Source: Elusimicrobiota bacterium (GTDB lineage Bacteria > Elusimicrobiota > Elusimicrobia > Elusimicrobiales > UBA9959). From it: DNA of 39,119 nucleotides. The stretch is taken from positions 1 to 39,119 of the forward strand of contig JACQPH010000080.1 of the NCBI GenBank assembly GCA_016207645.1, written 5' to 3'. The position numbers and the translations under genes are program-made. Under the pieces are notes generated by a model. It was not told the origin of the DNA. It searched no databases and saw nothing but the letters and a program-made list of their open reading frames with translations. Below are positions 19,155 to 37,969 of the stretch, in pieces. Position 1 is the first letter of the stretch; each line of letters opens with the position of its first letter.

Positions 19155-20540
19155 CTACGCCCTGCTCTGTGCCGGCCCGTCCGCCGGAGCTCCCCTCAGG
19201 ATATACAGCCGCATGATCACGGCCGTCAGGAACCAGAAGGGCTCCATTATGCGGACTATGATAAAAGTGTTCACCCCTACGGCCTGGGCGAGCAGGCCCA
19301 GCAGCGAAACCATCAGGCCCAGGGACGCCGCCTTTATCCAGGGTTCCTGATAGGCCCTGAAAACCGCGTTCGCCGCCGAGTAGATCCTGTAGACCATCCA
19401 GAAGAAAGCGAAGAAGCCCACCAGCCCCACCTCGCCGAGGAGCAGCGCGTACTGGGTATCCCCCAGGCCTACGCCCGTGACGCCGCTGCCCAGCACCGGG
19501 TGCTTCGGAAGCCACTTCTGGAAGACGTCGCGGATAGCGGCATACCGGCTGTAGGCCGACTCCTCGAGCTTGAAGGTCACCCCCAGAAAGCCCACTTCGT
19601 ACACGGCGTACTGCCCGCTGTACGTCATCTCCACCCGCTCGCGCACCTTCCCGGTAAATTCCTTCATTCCGTATAGCGCCGCCGAACCGAGCAGCAGGAT
19701 GGAGATCAGCAGCAGCCTCCTCCTCTCGGTCTTCAGGATGACGGCTCCCAGCATCACCACGAAGCCTATGTACGAGGCCCTGGAGAAAGTAAGCAAAAAG
19801 GCCGGGAAAATGAAGGCCAGCGCCGCCAGCGGCCAGCCGAGCACGGGCCCGGAGGTGAGAAGCCCGAACAGGACGCCCATCACGATCAGGTAATAGCCGC
19901 CCAGCGAGGCCGGCTCGGACTCCCCGGGCTTGCCGAAGGCCGCCTCAAAAGGGGCGCTGGCCCTGGCGCCCGCGCCGGCGGTAAAATAATAAAAATAGGC
20001 GTAGACGGTGACCGCCAGGGAGATGAAAAAAGCGTAATTCAGATATTTGCGGATATCCTCCCTGGATTCCAGCACGTTCACCGTGAGGAAATAGAGCAGG
20101 AAGTACTCCACGTATTTCAGGATGTAGAAAACCGCCACCTCGTAGCGGATATTGCCGCGCAGGATGCCGAATACCGTGGAGAGCACGCAGAGGGAGGTGT
20201 AGAGTATTATCGGGGTCTGCACCGGGGTGTCCGTGACAAAGGCCTTTCCCTTCAGCACCGCGCCTTTGGCCAGCCAGGCCAGGAAGATGATGACCAGCAG
20301 GATGTCGTCGTACCGCACCACCACGCCCCTGCTGCCGGTCAGCGCGCCGAAACCTATTTCCGGGGAGAAAAGCATGGAGAACAGCAGCAGCCCCAGGCTG
20401 AGCTTCGGGGAGGAGAAGGCGAAAAGAGAGACCAGGAAAGCGGAACAGACGGTGAAGAGAAAGTACGGGGAAACGGAGCTCGCCATAAAGCCCAGCCAGC
20501 CCGCGGCGACAAGGGCTACCAGGACGAGTATGATCGGCAT
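19155..20540 (-). CDS. O-antigen ligase/Wzy-type polymerase family membrane protein
   Basis: The 461-residue protein has about 11-12 transmembrane helices and the Wzy_C-type region: LTFSRASYIGFVVML at about residue 250, then the periplasmic loop with RYAAIRDVFQKWLPKHPVLGSG and DTQYALLLGEVGLVGFF at about 363. These are the arginine-rich loop and GxG region shared by WaaL ligases and Wzy polymerases. Beside Wzx-, Wzc- and Wza-like genes the polymerase role is more likely. The start is 6 bases after the kinase gene stop. Confidence 0.82.
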   Translation of the reverse strand: MPIILVLVALVAAGWLGFMASSVSPYFLFTVCSAFLVSLFAFSSPKLSLGLLLFSMLFSPEIGFGALTGSRGVVVRYDDILLVIIFLAWLAKGAVLKGKAFVTDTPVQTPIILYTSLCVLSTVFGILRGNIRYEVAVFYILKYVEYFLLYFLTVNVLESREDIRKYLNYAFFISLAVTVYAYFYYFTAGAGARASAPFEAAFGKPGESEPASLGGYYLIVMGVLFGLLTSGPVLGWPLAALAFIFPAFLLTFSRASYIGFVVMLGAVILKTERRRLLLISILLLGSAALYGMKEFTGKVRERVEMTYSGQYAVYEVGFLGVTFKLEESAYSRYAAIRDVFQKWLPKHPVLGSGVTGVGLGDTQYALLLGEVGLVGFFAFFWMVYRIYSAANAVFRAYQEPWIKAASLGLMVSLLGLLAQAVGVNTFIIVRIMEPFWFLTAVIMRLYILRGAPADGPAQSRA

Positions 20541-20546
20541 GGGAAC

Positions 20547-22403
20547 TTACCGCTTGGCGTAGTTCTTGTAGTCTTTGTAGTAATAGCCGTACTGCGGGCC
20601 CATCTCGGAGGCGCGCACACCGTTGAGCACCACGCCCAGCATGCGGGCGTTCGCGTTGGTGATCTGGTCGCCCGCGCGCTTGAGGGCGCCGCGCGCTATC
20701 TTGCCGGCCTTGTAGATCAGCACCACGCCGTCGGAGGCGTGCCTGGCTATCATCACCGCGTCCACGAAGAGCAGCACCGGGGGCGCGTCGAAAATTATGA
20801 GGTCGAACTCGCTCTTCAGGTCCTCCATCAGGTCCCGCCAGTTGGCCGAGTCCAGCACGTCCACCACGTTCTCCGGCTGGGTGCCGCAGTTGAGCACCTT
20901 CAGGTTCTCGATGCCGGAGAAGCGCATCAGCTGGTCGAAATCCAGGCCGCCCATGATGAAGTCGGCGCTTTCCAGCGCGGCCTCGCGCCAGTCGGCCTTC
21001 CTGGTCAGCACGTCGCTGAGGCCGGGGGCCTTCTTGGTGCCGAAGATCTCGTTGATGGCGGGGCGCCGCAGGTCGGCGTCTATCAGCAGGGTCTTGAGGC
21101 CGGAATGCGCGGCGGCCAGCGAGAAGTTAACGGCGGTCAGGGTCTTGCCCTCGGCCGCGCCCGCGGAGCTGATCACCAGGGAGACGCTTTCCTTCGTGTG
21201 CAGGTTGGACAGGATATTCGTGCGCATCGTATGGTAGGACTCTATCACGCCGGAGGCGTAGCGCTTGTTCACTATCAGCACGCTGCGGAAAGCGTCCACG
21301 GTATAGCGCTCTTTCTTGAAAACGTTGGTCAGCCAGTTGTCCAGATGTTTTTCGCTGAGGATGTTCGGGATGATGCCGAGCACCGGCAGCTTCATGAAGC
21401 CCTCGATGTCCTCGATGGTGGAGATGGACACGTCCAGGTTCTCCAGCAGGAAGACCACGACCACGGCTATGAACAGGCCCAGCACCACGCCCACCATCAG
21501 GTTCAGCCTGCGGTTCGGGGAGATCGGGGTGTTTTCCGGCTTGGGCCGGTTCACCACGCTGACAAAAGAGACCATGGAGGAGACGCCCAGCTTGGCCTCC
21601 TCGTGCTGCTTGTTGAGCGTGGTGTAAAGTTCTTCCTGCAGGCGCAGTTCGCGGCTGATGCGCGCCAGCGTCACTTCCTGCGCGGGGATCTCCTCGAGCT
21701 TGCTCTCCGTCACCTCTATGCGCTGCTGCAGGCTGAGCACCTCGGGGTGGTTGGGGGTGTACTTCTCCAGCAGCTGCTTCTTCTTTATCTCCAGGTCCGC
21801 GAGCTGGTTGGCCAGCGCCGCGCCCAGCCCGGTCTTGGGGTTCTTCTCCACGAAATTCTGCTTCTGCCTCTCCAGCGCGCGCAGGCTGTCCTCCACCTCG
21901 TCCTTGCGCGCGGAGATGTCGGCCAGGGTCTTCCTGGCCTGCAGGCTCTTCTGCTCCAGGTCGAAGTCGCGGTAGGCCGCTATCACGGCGGAGACTATAT
22001 CCGCGGCCCTGACCGGGTCGGCGTTGAAAGCTGAAATGGCTATCAGGTTGGAGTCGGTCAGGCGCTCCACCTTGTAGGAACCGGCTATCTCCGCCGCGGA
22101 CCCCGCCCCGGACGGCATGCCCAGCCTGGCCGCCGCGCGCTCGGAGATCTCGGAGGAGGTGATGACCATCAGCTCGGTGGCCACGGCGCTCCAGGGGTCG
22201 AATTCCTCGGCTACCGAGCCGGTGATCCTGGAGTAGGACGTCGGCGGCTTTATCTTTATCTTGCCCTGGCTGCGGTACACCGTGGGCTGCAGGCGCGTAT
22301 AGAACATGGTGGAGAAAACGGTGACCGCGAAGATCAGCAGGGCCACCCACTTGCGTCTGTTGACGATGCGCCAGTAATCGTAAAGAGTGAGTTCGGCGTT
22401 CAT
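20547..22403 (-). CDS. Wzc-like polysaccharide co-polymerase with bacterial tyrosine kinase domain
   Basis: The 618-residue protein joins a Wzz domain to a BY-kinase. Transmembrane helices lie at about 19-36 and 301-320 and flank a coiled-coil-rich periplasmic region; PISPNRRLNLMVG precedes the second helix. The kinase has Walker A (A414-x4-G419-K420-T421), Walker A' LLIDADLRRP at 439-448 and Walker B LIIFDAPP at about 535. The C-terminus is a tyrosine cluster (Y605, Y607, Y608, Y609, Y612, Y615), the usual autophosphorylation tail. It should control chain length and export together with the Wza-like protein 6 bases upstream. Confidence 0.93.
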   Translation of the reverse strand: MNAELTLYDYWRIVNRRKWVALLIFAVTVFSTMFYTRLQPTVYRSQGKIKIKPPTSYSRITGSVAEEFDPWSAVATELMVITSSEISERAAARLGMPSGAGSAAEIAGSYKVERLTDSNLIAISAFNADPVRAADIVSAVIAAYRDFDLEQKSLQARKTLADISARKDEVEDSLRALERQKQNFVEKNPKTGLGAALANQLADLEIKKKQLLEKYTPNHPEVLSLQQRIEVTESKLEEIPAQEVTLARISRELRLQEELYTTLNKQHEEAKLGVSSMVSFVSVVNRPKPENTPISPNRRLNLMVGVVLGLFIAVVVVFLLENLDVSISTIEDIEGFMKLPVLGIIPNILSEKHLDNWLTNVFKKERYTVDAFRSVLIVNKRYASGVIESYHTMRTNILSNLHTKESVSLVISSAGAAEGKTLTAVNFSLAAAHSGLKTLLIDADLRRPAINEIFGTKKAPGLSDVLTRKADWREAALESADFIMGGLDFDQLMRFSGIENLKVLNCGTQPENVVDVLDSANWRDLMEDLKSEFDLIIFDAPPVLLFVDAVMIARHASDGVVLIYKAGKIARGALKRAGDQITNANARMLGVVLNGVRASEMGPQYGYYYKDYKNYAKR

Positions 22404-22409
22404 AGGCTG

Positions 22410-23090
22410 TTACCTGGTCGACACCAGGCTGACCGTGACCGCGAAGGTGAACAGGGTAGCCCAGGGCACGATGTTGTCCGTGATCCACTTCGAGGCCGTG
22501 GAATAGGATTTACGGGGGATATAGACGATATCGCCGCTGAGCAGCGCGGTATTCTTCTCCATTTTACCGGCGAACACGGCCTCGAGATCGGCCTTTATGA
22601 CCTCCTCGCTGATCTTCCCGTCGGCGCCTTTGACGCGCCTGAAGATCCGGACCCTGTCCCTGCGGGCGTAATCGGAGGTGCCGCCGGCCTGGGCCACCAG
22701 GTCCAGCAGGCGCATGCCTTCCCGGTACTCGAAATAGCCGGGCTGGTGTATCTGGCCTATCACCGCCACGCGGCTGAAGGAGAACTTGCGGACGCTCAGC
22801 GTGATGGAGGGGTTGGAGACGTACTTCGAGAATTTGGCGGTCAGGATCTTCTGCAGGTCGTCGGGTTTGACGCCCTGCGCCCTGATGGAGCCGAGCATCG
22901 GCACCTCAATGCTGCCGTCGGGCTGCACCGTCACTTCCTTGGAGAATTCCTCGGCGGGCTGCACGTTGATGCTGATGACGTCGCCGGCTTCGATGAAATA
23001 TTCCTTCTCCAGCGCCCCCAGGTCCAGGCTGTAAGCCGGCACGGAGCCGAAAAAGGTCAGGAGCGACAGCGCCAGGGAGATCGTCTTCAT
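22410..23090 (-). CDS. Wza-like outer-membrane polysaccharide export protein without lipobox
   Basis: The 226-residue protein has an SPase I-type signal peptide (residues 1 to about 21, cleavage near AYS-LD). A Poly_export domain (YFIEAGDVISINV, then TVQPDGSIEVPMLGSI) and an SLBB domain (VAVIGQIHQPGYFEYREGMRLLDLVAQAGG) follow. There is no lipobox cysteine, unlike Escherichia coli Wza, and it is shorter than Wza (about 380 residues). The last 25 residues are hydrophobic and could form the outer-membrane helix. It is the first gene of the polysaccharide cluster. The start lies 8 bases after a TATAAT box and has no Shine-Dalgarno site. Confidence 0.9.
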   Translation of the reverse strand: MKTISLALSLLTFFGSVPAYSLDLGALEKEYFIEAGDVISINVQPAEEFSKEVTVQPDGSIEVPMLGSIRAQGVKPDDLQKILTAKFSKYVSNPSITLSVRKFSFSRVAVIGQIHQPGYFEYREGMRLLDLVAQAGGTSDYARRDRVRIFRRVKGADGKISEEVIKADLEAVFAGKMEKNTALLSGDIVYIPRKSYSTASKWITDNIVPWATLFTFAVTVSLVSTR

Positions 23091-23098
23091 ATTGATTA

Positions 23099-23127
23099 AT
23101 TATATACATTAGCGGCGGCCGCCTCAA
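23099..23127 (-). promoter_or_regulatory. Near-consensus sigma70-type promoter of the polysaccharide cluster
   Basis: On the minus strand, TTGAGG (23122-23127), a 17-base spacer and TATAAT (23099-23104) precede the Wza-like start codon. Only 8 bases separate the -10 box from the ATG, so transcription should start at or next to it. The spacer contains the perfect palindrome GGCGGCCGCC (23112-23121), a possible operator. Confidence 0.7.
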
Positions 23128-23134
23128 TAACATT

Positions 23135-25600
23135 CTATGCCTCCCGCTTTTTCTTCGCTCCGGGCGCTTCCCGCGCCCCCGGGCCCGGCCCGGGCAGCAG
23201 GCTCTCCAGCCTGGCTTCCAGGGCGGCGTACTTCTCCATGAACTCCTGGGCCTGCCTGCCTTTTTCGGTTATCAGCAGCAGGTCCCTGGCGCGCAGCTGT
23301 TCTTCCAGCCTGGCCTTGTACTCCTCCTCCAGCGCCTCCTTCCATTTCGCCAGGTCCGCCTTCGTTTTCAGCGCCTGGTCCGCTATGAAGGACTTGGTGG
23401 AAACGGCGCAAAGGGCCAGCTCGCTCTCATACCTTTCCTTTTCGAGCGCCCAGTTCTTTTCCCTGGCTTTAAAAGCCTCGGCCTGCTCCCGCGCCTCGGC
23501 CTCGAGCGCGGCCCTGGCTTTTTTGAGGTCCGCCGCGGTTTCGGCCAGCAGGCTTTCCCGCCTGCCGCTCCGCGCTTCCCGGGCGGCCCGCCCGGCTTCC
23601 AGCCGCTCCGCCGCTTCCCGGTTCAGTTCGGCCTCTCTTTCGCGCAGTTCGGCGGCCAGCGCCGCGCGGCGCGCGGCGTGCTCGCGTTCCAGTTCCTCCG
23701 CGCGCGCCGCCAGCGAAGCCTTCAGGGCGGCCTCCAGCCCGGCGTACTTTTCAGCCGACCCGGCTTTTGCCCGCTCGAACTCTTCCTCCAGCGCGGCCTT
23801 CTCCCCCTCGAACCGGGCCTTGAGCTCGTTCAGCGACTTGAGGTAGGCGTCCCGCTCCTTCCCGGCCTCTTCCCGCCGCGAACGGAGCTCGGCCTCCTTC
23901 TCGCGCAGCCTGGCCGCCAGTTCGGCGTAATGTTCTTCGCTCCAGGCGATGAACTGCTTCTCCAGCTCCTTTACCTTCCCGCGCTCCGCGGCCAGGTCCC
24001 GCTCTTTCGCCACGAGCTCCGCGGACTGCCGCGCCGCGTACTCGCGCTCCAGCTCCGCCGTCCGCGCCGCCTGCGCGGCCCGCAGGCCGGCCTCCAGCTC
24101 GGCGAATTTCTCGCCGGACTTCGTCCTGATCCTCTCGCGCTCCGCCTCCCAGACCTCTTTTTCCTCCGCGAACCGCCCCTTAAGTCCGTCGATCAGCTTA
24201 AGATAGGCGCCCCTCTCCCTGTCAAATTCCTCCAGCCGCGAGCGGAACTCGGCCTCCTTCTCCCGCAGCTTCTCCATCAGTTCCGCGTGGTGCTCCTCGT
24301 TCAGGCCGAGGATCCTGTTCTCCAGCTCCTTGACCTTCTCATGCTCCGCGGCCAGGCGCCGGTCCTTCGCGGCCGACTCCTCCTCCTGCCACCGGCTGCG
24401 TTCCTCGTACTGGCGCTCCCGCTCGTCCAGGCTGGCTTTGAGCCTGGCGCTTTCGTCCTTCGCCAGCGCCGTTCCCTCGGCCGCTTCCTCGCCCTTTTTC
24501 TCGGACGCTTTCAGCGACGCCAGCAGGCGGCCGGTCACTTCCTCCACCGCCTCCTGCACGCGGCGCCCGCTCTCCCGCTCGAATTCGGACCTGGCCTCGA
24601 ACAGGCGCTTTTCCGTCTCGTTCTCCCTGCCGGCCAGGCTGTCGGCCAGACGCCGGCGCTCCGCCGCCAGGTCCTCCAGCTCTTTCTTCGCTTTCCCGAG
24701 GTCCTCCCTGGCCCTGGCCAGCAGCCCTTCCTGCCGCCCGGCCTGCGCCTCCGCCTCCGCGCGCTCCAGCTCCAGGCGCTCCGCGGCGGCCTTGTTCAGC
24801 TCGGTCTCTTTCGCGCGCAGCTTCTCCTTCAATTCCGCCTGGTGCGCCTCGGTCAGCTCGGAGATCCGCGTCTCCAGCTCCCTAGCCGTGGCGCGCAGCG
24901 AGGCCAGGTCATGCTCTTTCACCTCGAGCTCCCCCGCCTGCTGCGCGATGCTCTCCTCGAGCTGCCGCGTGCGCGCCGCGAGGGCGTCCCTGAGCCTGTC
25001 GTTCTCTTCTTTGGCGCGGAAGGCCTCGGCCGAGGCGTCGGAGAACTTCTGCTCCGCCGCCTTCAGCGCCAGCAGCAGATGGCCGGTGATCTGTTCCACG
25101 GCTTCCTGTATGCGGCGCCCGCTCTCCTTGTCGTATTCCGCCTTGGCCTCGAACAGACGCCTCTTGAGCTCGGCCTCCTGCTCCTCCAGCCTGCCCTTCA
25201 TGCGGCGATTCTCCGAGTAGAGGTCCTCGCTCTCCTTCTGCGCCCTGCCGAGGGCCTCGTTCAATTCCGCTTTCTCGCAGGCGAAAGACACGCCGGCCTT
25301 TTCCAGCCTGGCCGTAGCCGCCGCCCGGAGCTCTTCCAGGGCGCGGCCCGCCTCCTCGCGCAGTTTTTCCCTTTCCCGCGTCCAGTTCCTGTCTTTTTCC
25401 CTGATAGCGGCGTTGCGCTCCCTGGCCGAAACATCGAACAGGGTCTCATTCAGGGACCTGACCTCCGGTTCCGCGTCCTCCAAGATCGCGCCGAGCTGCG
25501 CGGAGGCGGGGTTCCGGGTCTCCCAGAGCCGCACCAACAGCTTTTTCAGCCTGTCCACCATGTCCGCGGGGACATAGTGCACGAGTTTCTCTTTTTCCAT
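23135..25600 (-). CDS. Large coiled-coil protein with shared N-terminal domain and duplicated blocks
   Basis: The 821-residue protein is almost wholly charged, Ala/Glu/Arg/Leu-rich coiled coil (about 60-800), with no signal peptide or membrane segment. Residues 1-56 form a separate, less charged domain aligned without gaps to the 232-residue neighbour (24 of 56 identical, including V10-P11, L25-W26, R29-N30-P31). Ungapped internal repeats are visible: 149-270 matches 333-454 (offset 184), 411-530 matches 531-650 (offset 120), and 262-310 matches 653-701 (offset 391). The tail (803-821) is Pro/Gly then Lys/Arg-rich. It is the last gene of a four-gene operon. I know no function; a cytoskeletal, tethering or scaffold role is inference. 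Confidence 0.85.
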   Translation of the reverse strand: MEKEKLVHYVPADMVDRLKKLLVRLWETRNPASAQLGAILEDAEPEVRSLNETLFDVSARERNAAIREKDRNWTREREKLREEAGRALEELRAAATARLEKAGVSFACEKAELNEALGRAQKESEDLYSENRRMKGRLEEQEAELKRRLFEAKAEYDKESGRRIQEAVEQITGHLLLALKAAEQKFSDASAEAFRAKEENDRLRDALAARTRQLEESIAQQAGELEVKEHDLASLRATARELETRISELTEAHQAELKEKLRAKETELNKAAAERLELERAEAEAQAGRQEGLLARAREDLGKAKKELEDLAAERRRLADSLAGRENETEKRLFEARSEFERESGRRVQEAVEEVTGRLLASLKASEKKGEEAAEGTALAKDESARLKASLDERERQYEERSRWQEEESAAKDRRLAAEHEKVKELENRILGLNEEHHAELMEKLREKEAEFRSRLEEFDRERGAYLKLIDGLKGRFAEEKEVWEAERERIRTKSGEKFAELEAGLRAAQAARTAELEREYAARQSAELVAKERDLAAERGKVKELEKQFIAWSEEHYAELAARLREKEAELRSRREEAGKERDAYLKSLNELKARFEGEKAALEEEFERAKAGSAEKYAGLEAALKASLAARAEELEREHAARRAALAAELREREAELNREAAERLEAGRAAREARSGRRESLLAETAADLKKARAALEAEAREQAEAFKAREKNWALEKERYESELALCAVSTKSFIADQALKTKADLAKWKEALEEEYKARLEEQLRARDLLLITEKGRQAQEFMEKYAALEARLESLLPGPGPGAREAPGAKKKREA

Positions 25601-25608
25601 ACCGGGAC

Positions 25609-26181
25609 CTATTCCAGCCCCACCGCTTTGGTGAGGGACTTCACCAGCACCCGCAGCTCCTCCACCTTATGCTCCAGCTCGCGCTCCCTTTCGGAGCTGC
25701 CGGCCGAAGCCTGCGCCCCGCCCCCCAGGGCGGCCCTGGAACTGAGCGTTTCGATCTTCCTTGAAAGCGCGTCGACGCGGTCGGCCAGGCCGGGCGCTTC
25801 CGCTCCGCCGCGGCCGGAAGGCAGGCAGACCCTGAAAAGCGCGAGCAGCATCACCAGCGAAAAGAGGGCGAAGAAGATGGCGCCGATGAGGGCCAGGTAG
25901 TCGAGGCCGGCCAGTACGCCTCCCAGCGAGGCGGTCAGCGTGGACAGCATGCCGAAAAGCATGCTCTCCTTGTTCTCGCTCCAGGCCGGGTTGTGCTGGC
26001 CGCCGAAGAAAGGCGGCGGCTCCGCCGCCCGCTCCGGCCTGCCGAACCGCTCCGGCCTGGCCGGGACGGGCTGCGGGCCGCGCTGCGGCGCCGCGGGCCG
26101 GGGCGCCTCGAATTCAGGCAGGGGCCTTACTTCCCCTTTAAGCCTGTCGAGCAGGTCCTTCAGCTCCCTGGTCCCGCTCAT
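25609..26181 (-). CDS. Small membrane protein of the coiled-coil operon
   Basis: This 190-residue protein has a short amphipathic N-terminus (RELKDLLDRLKGEVRPL), a Pro/Arg-rich linker (25-57) and a hydrophobic block at 74-120 that can form one long or two short membrane helices. A C-terminal helical region (about 132-190) ends in a short leucine-heptad coiled coil. The start overlaps the stop of the 232-residue gene by 4 bases (ATGA), with GGAGG before it. It is the only membrane protein of the operon, so it is the natural candidate to anchor the coiled-coil partners to the inner membrane. That role is inference. Confidence 0.8.
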   Translation of the reverse strand: MSGTRELKDLLDRLKGEVRPLPEFEAPRPAAPQRGPQPVPARPERFGRPERAAEPPPFFGGQHNPAWSENKESMLFGMLSTLTASLGGVLAGLDYLALIGAIFFALFSLVMLLALFRVCLPSGRGGAEAPGLADRVDALSRKIETLSSRAALGGGAQASAGSSERERELEHKVEELRVLVKSLTKAVGLE

Positions 26182-26876
26182 AACCCTCCGCCGGCGGGCT
26201 TTCCTTCCTCGCGCCCGGCCAGCTCTTTTTCCTTGGCTTCCAGACCGGCGCGTATCCGGTCGAAGGTCTTTATCAGGTCCGATTTCCGCGCGTTAAAATC
26301 TTCCTCGAGGGCCCTCTCGCGCTGCTTGAACTGCTTGGCTTTCGCAGCGCATTCCTCGTCGAACTCCCTGGCCCGTATCTCCAGGGACTTGTTCTTGTCC
26401 TCCCACCGGGCCAGCATTTCCAGCTCCTTTTTATTGATCTTCTCGTAAAGCTCCTGCATCCGGGCCACGTATCTGGCGTTGAGCGTCCCTTCGTCCTCGG
26501 CGGTCTTGATCCTGAGCTCCGCCACCAGCGCCTCGCGCTCGTTGAAGGCCATCTGCATCTCCTCGTTCTTTTTGAGCGCGCCGCGCAGCGAGTTCTCGGT
26601 ACCGGCCAGGCGCGCCTTGAGGTCCTCCAGCTCTTTCTTGAGGCGGACCTCCTTCTGTTCGAACCGGCTCTGGCCGGAGGCCAGGCGCGCGGCATAATCG
26701 GATTCGGCGTCCTTCAGCACATTGCCCAGCGTCTTCACGTCCGGTCCGAATTCCTCCAGCAGGGCGTTAAGGGCCACGGAGGTGGGGTTCCTGTCCGCCC
26801 AGAGCTTCGCCGACAGGGCCGCCAGCCTTTGCAGGAACTCCCCCGGCACGCATTGCATGGCGCGTTCTTTTTCCAT
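26178..26876 (-). CDS. Short coiled-coil protein sharing the N-terminal domain of its larger neighbour
   Basis: In this 232-residue protein, residues 1-56 are clearly homologous to the start of the 821-residue protein (MEKE, V10-P11, R17-L18, LW at 25-26, RNP at 29-31, S33, P45, V47). Residues 57-222 are a continuous coiled coil, and the end is Gly/Pro-rich. No signal or membrane segment is present. It starts one base after the stop of the 954-residue gene and overlaps the membrane-protein gene by 4 bases, so the products are probably made together. Function unknown. Confidence 0.82.
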   Translation of the reverse strand: MEKERAMQCVPGEFLQRLAALSAKLWADRNPTSVALNALLEEFGPDVKTLGNVLKDAESDYAARLASGQSRFEQKEVRLKKELEDLKARLAGTENSLRGALKKNEEMQMAFNEREALVAELRIKTAEDEGTLNARYVARMQELYEKINKKELEMLARWEDKNKSLEIRAREFDEECAAKAKQFKQRERALEEDFNARKSDLIKTFDRIRAGLEAKEKELAGREEGKPAGGGL

Positions 26877-26877
26877 A

Positions 26878-29742
26878 TTATTTCTTCCTGTACTCGATGA
26901 TGGCGCGGGCGAGCTCGCCCTTGAGCTTCTCCAGTTCGGAGTTCCTGATGGCGTAGTCCTTCTCGAGCTTGAGCCTGAACTCGTTGAGCGCTTTCTCCTT
27001 TTCTCCGAGCTCCTGTTTCTGCGCGAACATGTCCTCGTTGAACCCGTTCAGGCGCATGTTCAGGCCGGCGTGCAGGCCGTCCAGCTCCAGCTGCTTCTGC
27101 CTGTAGAACTTGTCGCTGTCGGCCAGCAGCTTTTCCTTGGCGGCCAGCAGGCTCTCGAGCTGCCTGATGCGGGCGTCGCCGCGGGCCTTCTCCTCTGCGG
27201 CCTGCTCGCGGAAGCGCGCGTCCTGCTCGGCGATGTTCCTCATCAGCTCTCCGGAGGCGTTCTGGCGGTACTTGAGCATCGTATGCTCGAGCTCCTGCAG
27301 TTTCTCGTCGGCGCTCTCGATGTAGCGGTCGCGGCGGCCCAGTTCCTCCAGCAGCTGGTCCTTCTCGGCCTCGAAGCCTTCCCGCAGCAAGCCCACCTCC
27401 TCGCGGTTGGTCTTTTTCATCTTCTCGAGCTCTTCCTGCGAGTGGCGCAGCCGGTCCTCGGCCAGTTCCACGGCCGCGGCCACGGCGTCGCCCACCGAGG
27501 CGTCGAACTCCCTGATCTGGGCCTTCTGCAGCTCGACCTTCTCGTCGTGGAAAGCCTTCTCGGCCGCCAGCAGCTTCTCCGCCATTTCCTTGGCCCCGGC
27601 TTTGGCCTGGGCGGCGGCGGCGTCCTGCTTCTCTATCTCCTTCCTGAGGACGGCGTTGTCCTCGGCGAGGCGGTTGGACTTCAGGTCGAAATCGCTGCTT
27701 ATCTCCTCGAGGCGCGTCTGGTAGTCCTCTTCGAAAGCGGCCTGTTTGGCGGCGTAGGCCTTCTCCAGTTCGGCGCGGCGCACGGCCAGGCCCTCGGAGA
27801 TGGCGGAGATCCGCTTCGCTTCGTTGTCGCGCGCGGCTTCCGCGGCGGCGTTGGTCAAAGCGCGCACGGAGCTCTCGCTGGCCTCCAGAGCGGCCGAAAG
27901 CTCGGCCTGCTTCGACAGGGAGGCGTCGAGGTTCCTGACCAGGTCGGAAGTCAGCGCGGCCACGGACTCCTTCACGCGGAAAGTAAGCTCCTTTTCGTAG
28001 CCGGCCTTGGCCTCGAGCAACTCCCTGGCGTAGCGGTCCTCGCGCCCGGCGTTCTCCATTTCGGCCTGGCGCTGCCTGGCGTTGAAACCTTCTATCTCTT
28101 TCTGCGCCGCTCTGAAAGCGGCGGAAGTCTCGGCCAGCGTGGCTTCCAGCCTGACGCGCTCCGCCAACCAGTTTCCCCTGTCCACCTCTATTCTCATCGC
28201 GACCTTGGCGTCGAACTCCGCGTAAACGCTTTTCTTTTCCTCTATGAACTCGGCTTCCCTGCGCCGGAGTTCGTCGGCGAGCTTATTTATAGTTTCATTA
28301 TAAGCCTGTTTCTCGGCCTCGAAGCCGGCCAGCTTGTCGCGGAACGAGGCCTCCCCGGCGCGGAGGCGCTCCAGCAGGTCCTTGTGATGCTCCTCGCGGG
28401 TGGCCGTGACGGCATGCTCCAGCTCTTTCAGCCTGGCCGAAGCGGCGGCCAGCGCCTCTTCGCTCGCCAGCTTTTCCCCCTCCAGAATGTCTTTTTGCGC
28501 GTCCATGGACTGCCGCTCGGCCTGCAGGCGCGCGTCGAATTCCTTTTCGAAAGCGGCGCGGCTGGACTCTATCTCTTTCTCTATCTCCTTCCTCCTGTCC
28601 GCGAAAGCGTTCTCGAGCGCGGCGGCGCGTTCGCGCAGGCCGGCTTCCATGGAACTGAGCCTGCCGTCGAATTCCGCCTGCAGCCTCGAGCGGTCCGCCT
28701 CCCAGCTGTCCGACCTCTTTTCAAGTCTGCCCTGCAGTTCCCTGACGGTCTCCTCTTTGGCGGCTTTTTCGGCTTCCAACCCGGCCAGTTGGGCCCTGAA
28801 AGCGGTCTCTTTCTCGGTTATGATCTTAAGCAGCTCGTTATGATGGGCCTCCTGCTGGGCGGCCAGGGCGTTCTCTATCTCTTTTATGCGGTCCTGGGCG
28901 GAGGCGTACTGGGCCTCGCGCACATGCTGCTCCTGCAGGAGCCTCGCGCGCTCTATCTGCCAGGAGGCTTCGAACGCGCGCACCTGCTCGGCGTGGTCGG
29001 AATCGGCGGCGCGGAGCTTCTCCTCCAGGCCGGCTTCCAGGAGGTTCTTCAGCTTGCGGTAATTCTCCTCGGCCTCGCGCTTCTTCTGGAGGTATTCGGC
29101 CTCCAGCGCGCCGCGGCGCGCCTCCACCTTCTCCTCGGACCGGAGCACGCTGCTTTCCAGCCCGGCTACCCTTTCGGAAAGGAATTTCTCGCGCGACCTG
29201 AAATCGGCCTGGAGCGAGTTCATCCGCCCCTGGTACTCCCCCTCCAGCTCCGCGCGCAGGCCGTCGTATTTCTTCTGGGCCTCGGCCAGGCGGCCGGCGT
29301 ACTGGCTTTCCACCTCCAGCAGGCGGGAGTTCCAGCGCTCTATCACCGAGCGCTGGTTACGGTCCAGTTCCTCGAATTTGTCGGAATATTCGGCTTCCAG
29401 GCTGTGGCGCAGGGAATCCAGCTTGGCCTCTTTCTTCAGCAGCTGCTGTATGTCCAGCTTGCCCTCGCCCAGGAGGGACATGGTGGCTTCAAGCTTGGTG
29501 TAAAAATCCTCTTTTTCCTCTATGGTCTTGTTGCGCGAGGTATAGGCGTCGGTGAGGGAGGCTTCCTTGACCTGCAGCCGCCTGGCGGTTTCCTCGGCCA
29601 GGGTCAGGTTCTTCTTGAGGTCGGCCTTTTCTTTTTCGATGTTGTTGAGCCTCTCCAGCGCCCAGCGCAGCGTCATCCGGGCGGTGTCCAGGCTCGTCAC
29701 ATCGTTGACCAGCTGTTCGAGTTCGTTATAATCGTTCGCCAT
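26878..29742 (-). CDS. Very long coiled-coil protein, first gene of the operon
   Basis: The 954-residue protein is nearly all coiled coil. Its N-terminus (VNDVTSLDTARMTLRWALER) differs from the domain shared by the two neighbours. It repeats a block seen in the 821-residue protein: KEIE (287-290) to H300-H301 and beyond, and KELE (439-442) to H452-H453 (offset 152), plus a degenerate copy at 814-848. A second shared block, at 575-610 (LLEAKAGYEKE, then V-x-ES-x3-LTSDL), matches residues 149-180 of that protein. AAGGG 9 bases before the ATG is a modest ribosome-binding site, and a good promoter lies about 80 bases upstream. SMC or Rad50 ATPase motifs are absent. Confidence 0.85.
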   Translation of the reverse strand: MANDYNELEQLVNDVTSLDTARMTLRWALERLNNIEKEKADLKKNLTLAEETARRLQVKEASLTDAYTSRNKTIEEKEDFYTKLEATMSLLGEGKLDIQQLLKKEAKLDSLRHSLEAEYSDKFEELDRNQRSVIERWNSRLLEVESQYAGRLAEAQKKYDGLRAELEGEYQGRMNSLQADFRSREKFLSERVAGLESSVLRSEEKVEARRGALEAEYLQKKREAEENYRKLKNLLEAGLEEKLRAADSDHAEQVRAFEASWQIERARLLQEQHVREAQYASAQDRIKEIENALAAQQEAHHNELLKIITEKETAFRAQLAGLEAEKAAKEETVRELQGRLEKRSDSWEADRSRLQAEFDGRLSSMEAGLRERAAALENAFADRRKEIEKEIESSRAAFEKEFDARLQAERQSMDAQKDILEGEKLASEEALAAASARLKELEHAVTATREEHHKDLLERLRAGEASFRDKLAGFEAEKQAYNETINKLADELRRREAEFIEEKKSVYAEFDAKVAMRIEVDRGNWLAERVRLEATLAETSAAFRAAQKEIEGFNARQRQAEMENAGREDRYARELLEAKAGYEKELTFRVKESVAALTSDLVRNLDASLSKQAELSAALEASESSVRALTNAAAEAARDNEAKRISAISEGLAVRRAELEKAYAAKQAAFEEDYQTRLEEISSDFDLKSNRLAEDNAVLRKEIEKQDAAAAQAKAGAKEMAEKLLAAEKAFHDEKVELQKAQIREFDASVGDAVAAAVELAEDRLRHSQEELEKMKKTNREEVGLLREGFEAEKDQLLEELGRRDRYIESADEKLQELEHTMLKYRQNASGELMRNIAEQDARFREQAAEEKARGDARIRQLESLLAAKEKLLADSDKFYRQKQLELDGLHAGLNMRLNGFNEDMFAQKQELGEKEKALNEFRLKLEKDYAIRNSELEKLKGELARAIIEYRKK

Positions 29743-29818
29743 AGTTTTTTGCCCTTGCTATGCAGGTGCAGTATCGGGAGCTATGCTCATCAGACGGCCC
29801 TTTGAATACTCTATATCA

Positions 29819-29847
29819 AGTTTAATACACACCCCACCCTAAGTCAA
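29819..29847 (-). promoter_or_regulatory. Sigma70-type promoter of the coiled-coil operon
   Basis: The minus strand has TTGACT (29842-29847), a 17-base spacer and TAAACT (29819-29824). This predicts transcription from about 29812 and a leader of about 70 bases before the 954-residue gene. It lies in the most AT-rich stretch of this intergenic region. Confidence 0.6.
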
Positions 29848-29886
29848 TATAAGGAATATTAAATGAATGTGAACAGAATATGTCAT

Positions 29887-30030: not shown

Positions 30031-30456
30031 ATGCGCAAGAGGCTCATCTGGACGGTAGTGCTTGCGGGGGCCGGCTTTATAGCCTGGCGCTTCGGCTACC
30101 CGTACGCTCTTAAATATTTTTTCCGGGTTTCCGGTACGGTCGGCGTAGCCCCGCAACTGCTCCAGGGCCTGCCCGGGGCCAACAGCATGCTTTTCGTGGT
30201 GGCCAGGAACGAAAGCGGCGTGCCGGTAGCCGTCAGGAAGATAATAAGCCCGGTTTTCCCGGCCAAATTCGAGCTGACCTCCTCCAACCTGATCATGCCG
30301 GACCTGCTGACGCGCAGGGTCTACCTTGACGCCATCCTCAACACTCACGGGCAGCTGGGGGTTCCGCGCAGGGGAGACCTGAAAGGGGCCCGCCAGGACC
30401 GGGTCAGCTTCTTCAGCAAGGGTCTTGAAATAACGCTGGACACGGCCCAAAAATAA
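30031..30456 (+). CDS. Membrane-anchored CcmI/CycH-like Ig domain protein
   Basis: The 141-residue protein has an N-terminal membrane helix (residues 5-19) and one periplasmic domain. The pattern SGTVGVAP, LFVVARNESGVPVAVRKI, PAKFELTSSNLIMPDLL, then GVPRRGDLKGA, resembles the C-terminal domain of the cytochrome c maturation protein CcmI/CycH. In other bacteria that domain follows a TPR region; here it stands alone. No other Ccm gene is nearby, so a role in haem-protein assembly is uncertain. There is no Shine-Dalgarno site; an in-frame stop shortly upstream fixes this ATG as the first start. It is the only clear plus-strand gene in the window. Confidence 0.65.
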   Translation: MRKRLIWTVVLAGAGFIAWRFGYPYALKYFFRVSGTVGVAPQLLQGLPGANSMLFVVARNESGVPVAVRKIISPVFPAKFELTSSNLIMPDLLTRRVYLDAILNTHGQLGVPRRGDLKGARQDRVSFFSKGLEITLDTAQK

Positions 30457-30505: not shown

Positions 30506-30676
30506 CTATCTTTTGAACTGCGGCCTTTTCCCGCTGGAGAGCGAAAAAAGCCAGATAAGCTTGTCCGTGGACTTTAACAGGTTATCCCAGTTCTTCTCCA
30601 GCTTCGGCAGCTTTTTTCCGGGTCTTTCCACCTTCGTGTCCTGTTCGTACTTCTTGGTGATCTCCTCCCAGGTCAT
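30506..30676 (-). CDS. Small 56-residue protein of unknown function
   Basis: The reading frame encodes 56 residues beginning MTWEEITKKYEQDTK and ending GKRPQFKR, rich in Lys and with three tryptophans (W3, W30, W42). It has no signal peptide; LIWLFSLSS at 40-48 is too short for a membrane span. Four things support a real gene: a strong AGGAG ribosome-binding site 4-5 bases before the ATG, a promoter-like sequence about 32 bases upstream of it, a strong terminator just after the stop, and no overlap with another gene. I do not recognise the family. Confidence 0.7.
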   Translation of the reverse strand: MTWEEITKKYEQDTKVERPGKKLPKLEKNWDNLLKSTDKLIWLFSLSSGKRPQFKR

Positions 30677-30735: not shown

Positions 30736-30755
30736 GGGCCTAAAGGCCTACCAGC
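30724..30755 (-). terminator. Rho-independent terminator of the glmU-prs-rplY-pth operon
   Basis: On the minus strand a GC-rich hairpin (30731-30755, GGCC-TTTA-GGCC core with an outer GC/GU helix) is followed by seven T residues (30724-30730). The stop codon of the small membrane protein gene lies inside the stem. Confidence 0.65.
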
Positions 30756-30978
30756 CCAAAGTCCTTGAGACGCCCATATAGACCAGCACCCCGCCTACCA
30801 GCAGCAGCAGGAAACCCCAGTTCTTGCGGTGCAGCGCCACGTAGGAATCGTTGAGGAAAGTCTCTTTTATCAGGCGGTTCACCCGCTCTATGATCTCCGG
30901 CCTGTAGATATACCCCAATCCCAGCAGGACGAAGAGCAGACCGAAAAAGATCTTAAGGAACGGGTTTATCTCGTTCAT
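30748..30978 (-). CDS. Small two-helix membrane protein
   Basis: The 76-residue protein has two hydrophobic helices (about 7-26 and 53-70) joined by a basic, helical loop. It resembles small inner-membrane proteins of unknown function; I do not recognise the family. The start codon lies inside the 3' end of pth (26-base overlap in another frame), so expression is probably coupled to that gene. It is the last gene of the housekeeping operon and ends in its terminator. Confidence 0.7.
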   Translation of the reverse strand: MNEINPFLKIFFGLLFVLLGLGYIYRPEIIERVNRLIKETFLNDSYVALHRKNWGFLLLLVGGVLVYMGVSRTLGW

Positions 30979-37260: not shown

Positions 37261-37569
37261 TCAGGGGTTGTTCGGGGGCGGGAGGACTTCGTATTTAGCT
37301 TGGATGACTTTCCGGAATTCCTCAGAGATGGCGTGCCAGTCCAGGATATCTACGCGGTAAGGGATATCCGATTCTTCGAAGGCTTCCCGGAGACTTTCGA
37401 GGATGGCGGGATTCAGTTTGGCAGAGCCGACCAGCGCGAGGTCGAGGTCGGAATAGTCCTTGGGGGTGCCGACGACACGCGAGCCGAAGGCGCGTGCTTC
37501 TACACCCGGAACATGGGCAACGAGGATAGCGCTGATTATCCGAAGTTGCTCCGGGGTCGCTTTAATCAT
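37261..37569 (-). CDS. mntA: MNT-domain nucleotidyltransferase antitoxin (MntA-like)
   Basis: The 102-residue protein is a minimal nucleotidyltransferase with the signature G-S-R-x-V-G-x5-SDLDLAL (within AFGSRVVGTPKDYSDLDLAL), as in MntA antitoxins that inactivate HEPN toxins by AMPylation. The frame is open further upstream, but the ATG at 37567-37569 overlaps the HEPN stop by 8 bases and matches the family's usual start. The HEPN partner is encoded first, as in HepT/MntA systems. Confidence 0.85.
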   Translation of the reverse strand: MIKATPEQLRIISAILVAHVPGVEARAFGSRVVGTPKDYSDLDLALVGSAKLNPAILESLREAFEESDIPYRVDILDWHAISEEFRKVIQAKYEVLPPPNNP

Positions 37570-37969
37570 TTCTCTGTTCGAGGATTTTAAGCAGGCTCCG
37601 CGCGTCCGCGGCGAAGGGAGCCGCAAGCGCGAAGATCGCGGCGGCCTTGGCGGGGTCGTAGGTGTGCGCGGTTTCGTTGCGGGCGGCGTGATATTTGAAC
37701 CAGTTCTCGACGCCCGTAATAAGCCGGCTTTCCGCGGCCAGCCTGAACAATTCTTTCCTGGTGGAACCGTCCACAGTGGAAGCCCCGGCGTTGAGTTCAA
37801 GCCACCTTTTCATGAATTTCCAGCACAGCTCGTAAGTCACTTCAAAATTATGTATTACCCCGGCCCGGATCACCTCTGCCTGCTCGGAATTCATGCTCCC
37901 GCCCGCCACTTTTAGGGTTCGGTCCAGAGAATCAACCGCTTTTTTCAGGCTGCCAAGATCCAGCGCCAT
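37562..37969 (-). CDS. hepT: HEPN-domain toxin (HepT-like, HI0074 family)
   Basis: The 135-residue helical protein is a nucleotidyltransferase substrate-binding/HEPN family member. It has the RNase motif R-x4-H-x-Y as RNETAHTY near residue 93, followed by DPAKAAAIF, and conserved WKFMKRWLEL at about 46. HepT toxins cleave RNA (tRNA in some cases) and are held in check by the MntA partner encoded next to it. AGGAG 7 bases before the ATG supports the start. A 6-bp inverted repeat upstream may be an operator. Confidence 0.87.
   Translation of the reverse strand: MALDLGSLKKAVDSLDRTLKVAGGSMNSEQAEVIRAGVIHNFEVTYELCWKFMKRWLELNAGASTVDGSTRKELFRLAAESRLITGVENWFKYHAARNETAHTYDPAKAAAIFALAAPFAADARSLLKILEQRND

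Follow-up and report, generated by a model that had tools for sequence, protein, structure and literature searches.

A conserved coil and membrane-protein gene block adjoins polysaccharide export genes in Elusimicrobiota

A three-gene block encoding a long helical rod protein (CC954), a short coil protein (CC232) and a small membrane protein (TM190) lies upstream of the polysaccharide export (EPS) genes Poly_export, Wzc and Wzy in about 40 Elusimicrobiota genomes, from the genus of the source genome and other genera of its family. How polysaccharide export machines are positioned within bacterial cells has been worked out in just a few model species. We here propose, giving the idea about equal weight for and against, that a cytoplasmic coil scaffold, made of CC954, CC232 and TM190 and tethered to the membrane, clusters or positions the Poly_export-Wzc-Wzy machine. 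If this is true, the head domain, the membrane adaptor and the natural variants in rod length make the question of placement directly testable, and a cytoskeleton-like family would be newly described in a phylum that is represented mainly by metagenomic data. Even if unrelated to EPS, the block would hold an undescribed, strongly conserved coil family. To our knowledge it is part of no described EPS cluster, and we found no description of such a coil system in the open literature, which, with few subscription papers, was the scope of the search.

The window, which is the whole 39,119-nucleotide stretch of DNA that was analyzed, lies within contig C58 of an Elusimicrobiota metagenome-assembled genome (MAG) of 2.8 Mb that is 81% complete, and those relatives that carry the same genes and have a name are Elusimicrobia or Elusimicrobiota MAGs. 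Four open reading frames on the − strand encode CC954 (26878–29742; 954 aa), CC232 (26178–26876; 232 aa), TM190 (25609–26181; 190 aa) and CC821 (23135–25600; 821 aa); the first pair is 1 base apart, the second overlaps by 4 bases and the third is 8 bases apart, so the lengths and head-to-tail spacing given in the initial annotation agree with the coordinates. On the same strand follow three constant neighbors: a polysaccharide export protein (Poly_export and SLBB; 22410–23090), a Wzc-like polysaccharide co-polymerase/BY-kinase with a Tyr-rich C-terminal tail (20547–22403) and a Wzy-like polymerase/ligase (19155–20540), for which the Wzy_C match is slightly below the curated cut-off. TM190 alone is hydrophobic enough for membrane segments (19-residue Kyte-Doolittle maximum of 2.81 versus <0.8 in CC954, CC232 and CC821), as expected from the earlier claim of a single membrane protein.

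The same annotation had read all four genes as one system, which we reject, given that the conserved block is CC954-CC232-TM190 and CC821 is extra to this genome. Where the contig reaches, the loci of 26 relatives share the order GlmU-Prs-L25-Pth-(Ig-like, other strand)-CC954-CC232-TM190-Poly_export-Wzc-Wzy; the three genes are thus kept as a block rather than scattered, and a CC821 counterpart is absent from all relatives' loci examined. The distance from TM190 to the export gene is mostly 18–45 bases within the genus (91 bases in the close relative L041 and 18 in L045 by the longest frame) versus 2.5 kb in the window, where CC821 is all that separates them. CC821 combines a CC232-type head (residues 1–56, 43% identical, E 3e-12) with rods of the CC954 type (E 6e-16) that have internal repeat lags of 184 and 120, so the domains that were said to be shared indeed are. 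A gain in this genome is a simpler origin than a loss in the sister species, and CC821 would then be an additional, mixed-type subunit that arose recently. Between Pth and CC954 the window also contains two small frames on the − strand, one for a small membrane protein (30748–30978) and one for a 56-aa MTWEEITKKYEQ... protein (30506–30676), to which a frame in L135 (about 1760–2041) is clearly related.

CC954 consists of an invariant head (residues 1–160), a variable rod and a conserved tail ending in LEKLKGELARAIIEYRKK. Among 18 proteins, identity is ~90% in columns 1–159, 50–60% in the mid-rod and 73% in the last 53 columns, and across the class the head motif reads LDTARMxLRWALER. AlphaFold2 predicts two long helices for the head (2–92 and 98–189; mean pLDDT of 89), interrupted at the conserved LLGEGKLDI. 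The rod has internal repeats (score of 137 versus ≤63 in block-shuffled controls; lag of 152), and total length in relatives varies nearly four-fold, from 790 to 2957 residues. The strong hydrophobic period is 3.62 residues (power of 32.6 in CC954), which is nearer to hendecad or 18-residue packing than to canonical heptads; hence ‘coiled coil’ should be read here as a long helical rod in which heptad packing is unproven. Given that it has no signal peptide or transmembrane (TM) segment, the rod is probably cytoplasmic. Outside EPS loci, paralogous coil proteins of ~758–1156 aa with the same N-terminal motif (for example, DTARLALRWALERL) are present in L090–L092 and L109, and in L092 a second coil gene lies head to tail downstream of the paralogue, its product beginning with a similar DSAKMILRLTSELR motif.

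The N-terminal domain of CC232 is conserved (MEKExxxxCVPxExLxRL...LW...NPxSVxLxAxLEEF), and the 4-base overlap with TM190 is kept in the loci of most relatives. For TM190, AlphaFold2 (mean pLDDT of 72) predicts a helix at 3–17, which is amphipathic, a low-confidence Pro-rich stretch, a helix at 65–119 and C-terminal helices at 131–152 and 163–188. Both hydrophobic segments fall inside helix 65–119, forming a two-helix membrane hairpin, and, judging by how short the loop is and by the positive residues that follow the second segment, both ends are probably inside, with a cytoplasmic C-terminal tail. In the proposed scaffold, TM190 would be a helical hairpin in the inner membrane, both ends inside, and the coil proteins would probably dock on its amphipathic and C-terminal helices. 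The invariant head and conserved tail of CC954 would serve assembly or recruitment, its rod would be a spacer of variable length and CC232 a short adaptor. Localized in this way, the proteins might oligomerize, possibly into filaments, and bind the EPS machine, and its spatial organization would be their purpose.

The association with EPS export is strictest for TM190. Within the phylum it matches 43 genomes, a search of genome contigs with TM190 gave matches in Elusimicrobiota only, and Poly_export is the next EPS gene for 39 of 39 good copies (34 by coordinates, at ≤506 bases, and 5 read from the loci), with no good copy lacking it. In g15 and f9, too, the gene after CC954 encodes a TM190-like protein that shares the N-terminal helix motif. 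Head-domain searches covered 341 genomes, all Elusimicrobiota, of which 107 match the head profile, many of the weak matches being paralogues that share only the first 50–120 residues. Scanning for the motif [DE][TS]A[RK][ML]x[LVI]xW[AT] returned 36 heads in the loci retrieved, which span several families; the sequence in almost all is LDTARMxLRWALER or a near variant, which makes mere coil bias an unlikely explanation for those matches. A CC232-like second gene adjoins or overlaps the CC954-like gene in f11, f14 and f15 as well.

Two of these families place the coil genes beside EPS genes in other arrangements. All six f14 genomes with a strong match (G184, G185, G186, G188, G189 and G190) have the head-bearing gene 2–3 kb from Poly_export, and the order where it was read (L093, L094, L097 and L120) is Poly_export-Wzc-coil followed by a membrane protein, with a Poly_export-Wzc pair only ~25% identical to that of the window. 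The f14 membrane protein is no homologue of TM190; directly after the coil gene in two loci (L093:10973–11689 and L094:11053–11757) it is a one-TM protein whose C-terminal part resembles CBM_48 (E 1.5e-4 and 1.9e-4; the matches reach the curated cut-off or fall just short of it). In two f15 genomes (G212 and G213) the coil genes adjoin TM190-like, Poly_export, Wzc and ATPase genes, the ATPase matching the XrtA-associated TIGR03015 at 207 bits versus a cut-off of 324.5. With 2–3 Poly_export genes per 4.2 Mb, a random gene would lie ≤5 kb from one in <1% of cases, an estimate to be read with the non-independence of genomes within one family in mind, while the three arrangements differ. By its conserved adjacency, the block is a genomic partner of the Poly_export-Wzc-Wzy cluster. 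The link to the envelope, which the initial annotation had offered as inference, is much strengthened by this, given that the block abuts the cluster in every relative with a good TM190 and that the head domain recurs beside a divergent Poly_export-Wzc pair in another family.

Not every coil locus has kept its EPS genes. Intact CC954 is retained in G010 (99% complete) and G155 (96%), although the EPS genes are gone at that locus and the coil genes have as their new neighbor a methyltransferase with a relative at the distal end of the EPS region of the window. CC954 is also intact in G151 (100% complete), where remnants of CC232 and TM190 share one short frame with a stop inside the TM190 match. 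No Poly_export was detected in G010 and G151, and G155 has one elsewhere. Hence, CC954 is not only an EPS part. This favors a general intermediate-filament-like cytoskeleton or polarity landmark for shape, poles or division, with the EPS machine as at most one client, as do the CC954-like/CC232-like pair of f11 genomes (one of them 99% complete) in which Poly_export was not detected, the location of the coil genes away from Poly_export in most f15 genomes, the far greater conservation of the CC954 head and tail than of the rod, and the further paralogues with the same head motif elsewhere in the genomes. However, a good TM190 always adjoins Poly_export, and adjacency to EPS genes recurs in f14 and f15, where the gene orders differ and an EPS pair is divergent, and we consider such a general role rather unlikely. 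Given that CC954 is kept without the EPS cluster and that the f11 pair occurs without a detected Poly_export, the more general role may belong to CC954, with TM190 and CC232 as the EPS-specific adaptors. A tentative extension is that Elusimicrobiota have their own membrane-tethered cytoskeletal family, marked by the LDTARMxLRWALER head and with rods of varied length, which adaptors couple to EPS secretion as a dedicated filament that organizes export.

Regulatory input to the BY-kinase would be another explanation of the strict position of TM190 beside Poly_export-Wzc: TM190 would then act like the small two-TM activators of split BY-kinases, with the coils as partners or phosphorylation targets. 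The two-helix hairpin with its probably cytoplasmic C-terminal tail fits this, as does the Tyr-rich end of the window's Wzc. However, in that Wzc the kinase is already fused to a transmembrane co-polymerase part, so a separate activator is unneeded, and we know of no BY-kinase activator with 1000-residue coil partners, which makes this reading improbable. TM190 has no match to the Wzz/GNVR domain, which is present in the adjoining Wzc. A molecular ruler, in which the length of the CC954 rod sets a distance or the polymer length, would suit the 790–2957-residue range between species and the internal repeats, but is very improbable given that the rod is probably cytoplasmic whereas polymerization occurs at the periplasmic face, and that close relatives whose Wzc proteins are similar have CC954 of very different lengths.

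Comparison with known families leaves the proposed scaffold without a described counterpart. CC954, TM190 and CC821 have no Pfam or NCBIfam match and do not fall into the curated cytoskeletal or polar families (DivIVA, bactofilin and others). CC232 has a sub-cut-off coil match to the SMC profile (19.9 bits versus 729), and PADLOC, a profile search of the PDB (A3) and Foldseek of the CC954 head returned nothing usable beyond generic coil similarity, to which we also attribute the SMC, ZorA and LmuB matches of CC232. Zorya ZorA was rejected because the PADLOC match is through the CC232 coil alone (E 7e-4 at best) and TM190 has no match to MotA/ExbB/TolQ. The CC954 head has no match in PLSDB plasmids. 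The HMM and structure-based searches thus reveal no homology to a known machine beyond generic coil similarity, which together with the tight coupling and the conservation as a block supports the original idea of one undescribed assembly with a membrane anchor.

In Streptomyces, the polar scaffold DivIVA/Scy/FilP acts with the CslA polysaccharide synthase, and cytoplasmic coils position a polysaccharide-making machine. This is an analogy of working only, with no detectable homology, and the coil genes in the window adjoin export genes of the Wzx/Wzy type. The XrtA/PEP-CTERM and Wzx/Wzy EPS clusters are alike in that Poly_export, Wzc and the f15 ATPase match TIGR03027, TIGR03018 and TIGR03015, below the cut-offs, but the exosortase (PF09721) of the former has no match in this 81% complete MAG, and an exosortase-type EPS system in this genome was therefore rejected. 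The criteria for proteins with intermediate filament (IF)-like rod domains are a coiled coil of >80 residues, which may be unbroken or in segments, the absence of TM, signal and catalytic domains, and spontaneous assembly into filaments (PMC2680258). Measured against this, the CC954 head helices are long by prediction, CC954, CC232 and CC821 have no TM segment and no Pfam domain, and the hydrophobic period is 3.62, not 3.5. CC954 resembles crescentin and FilP (Bagchi et al. 2008, PMC2680258) in being a long helical rod that lacks TM, signal and enzymatic domains, and the FilP family also in its variable rod architecture with conserved N-terminal motifs, but differs in having no Pfam or PDB sequence match, a dedicated membrane subunit and an EPS gene context. 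The Mad proteins likewise form a coiled-coil network that organizes a membrane-bound structure, but the structure is the magnetosome and they have actin-like partners (PMC12748827). Magnetotactic Elusimicrobiota are reported to lack the Mad proteins for chain formation (PMC12748827), and a magnetosome Mad identity was rejected for that reason.

The promoter that had been placed ahead of the coil genes corresponds to a sigma-70-like site at 29847–29819 on the − strand (promoter region 29810–29875), with a −35-like TTGACT at 29847 and a −10-like TAAACT ending at 29819. It lies in a 68-base stretch ahead of CC954 that is largely invariant (34 invariant columns in an alignment with 14 relatives). 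About 10 bases upstream of the −35, an inverted repeat TGTTAA-N7-TTAACA, degenerate in the window (about 29857–29875, − strand) and best preserved in relatives such as L035, looks like a candidate regulator site. A promoter scan and comparison with relatives also identified a AAATATATATAATTAnCCTATG −10-like box 8 bases before the export-gene ATG (TATAAT; 23099–23104, − strand), with homologous sites in nearly all relatives (L034–L059), usually 6–8 bases before the start codon. This position points to a separate, perhaps leaderless transcript for the export gene and suggests leaderless transcripts in this group. Given this promoter-like element, co-transcription of the coil block with the export gene is uncertain, and the two are probably consecutive transcription units, both conserved. 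The divergent gene next to CC954 (30031–30456, + strand) encodes a 141-aa protein with a CycH Ig-like domain (PF23892); it is present there in nearly every relative whose contig spans the site, and a TAAAAT-like box likewise precedes its ATG by a few bases. Further along the window, at 37261–37969 (− strand), adjacent small genes resemble, as judged by eye only, a toxin-antitoxin-like pair of a nucleotidyltransferase and a HEPN-type substrate-binding protein.
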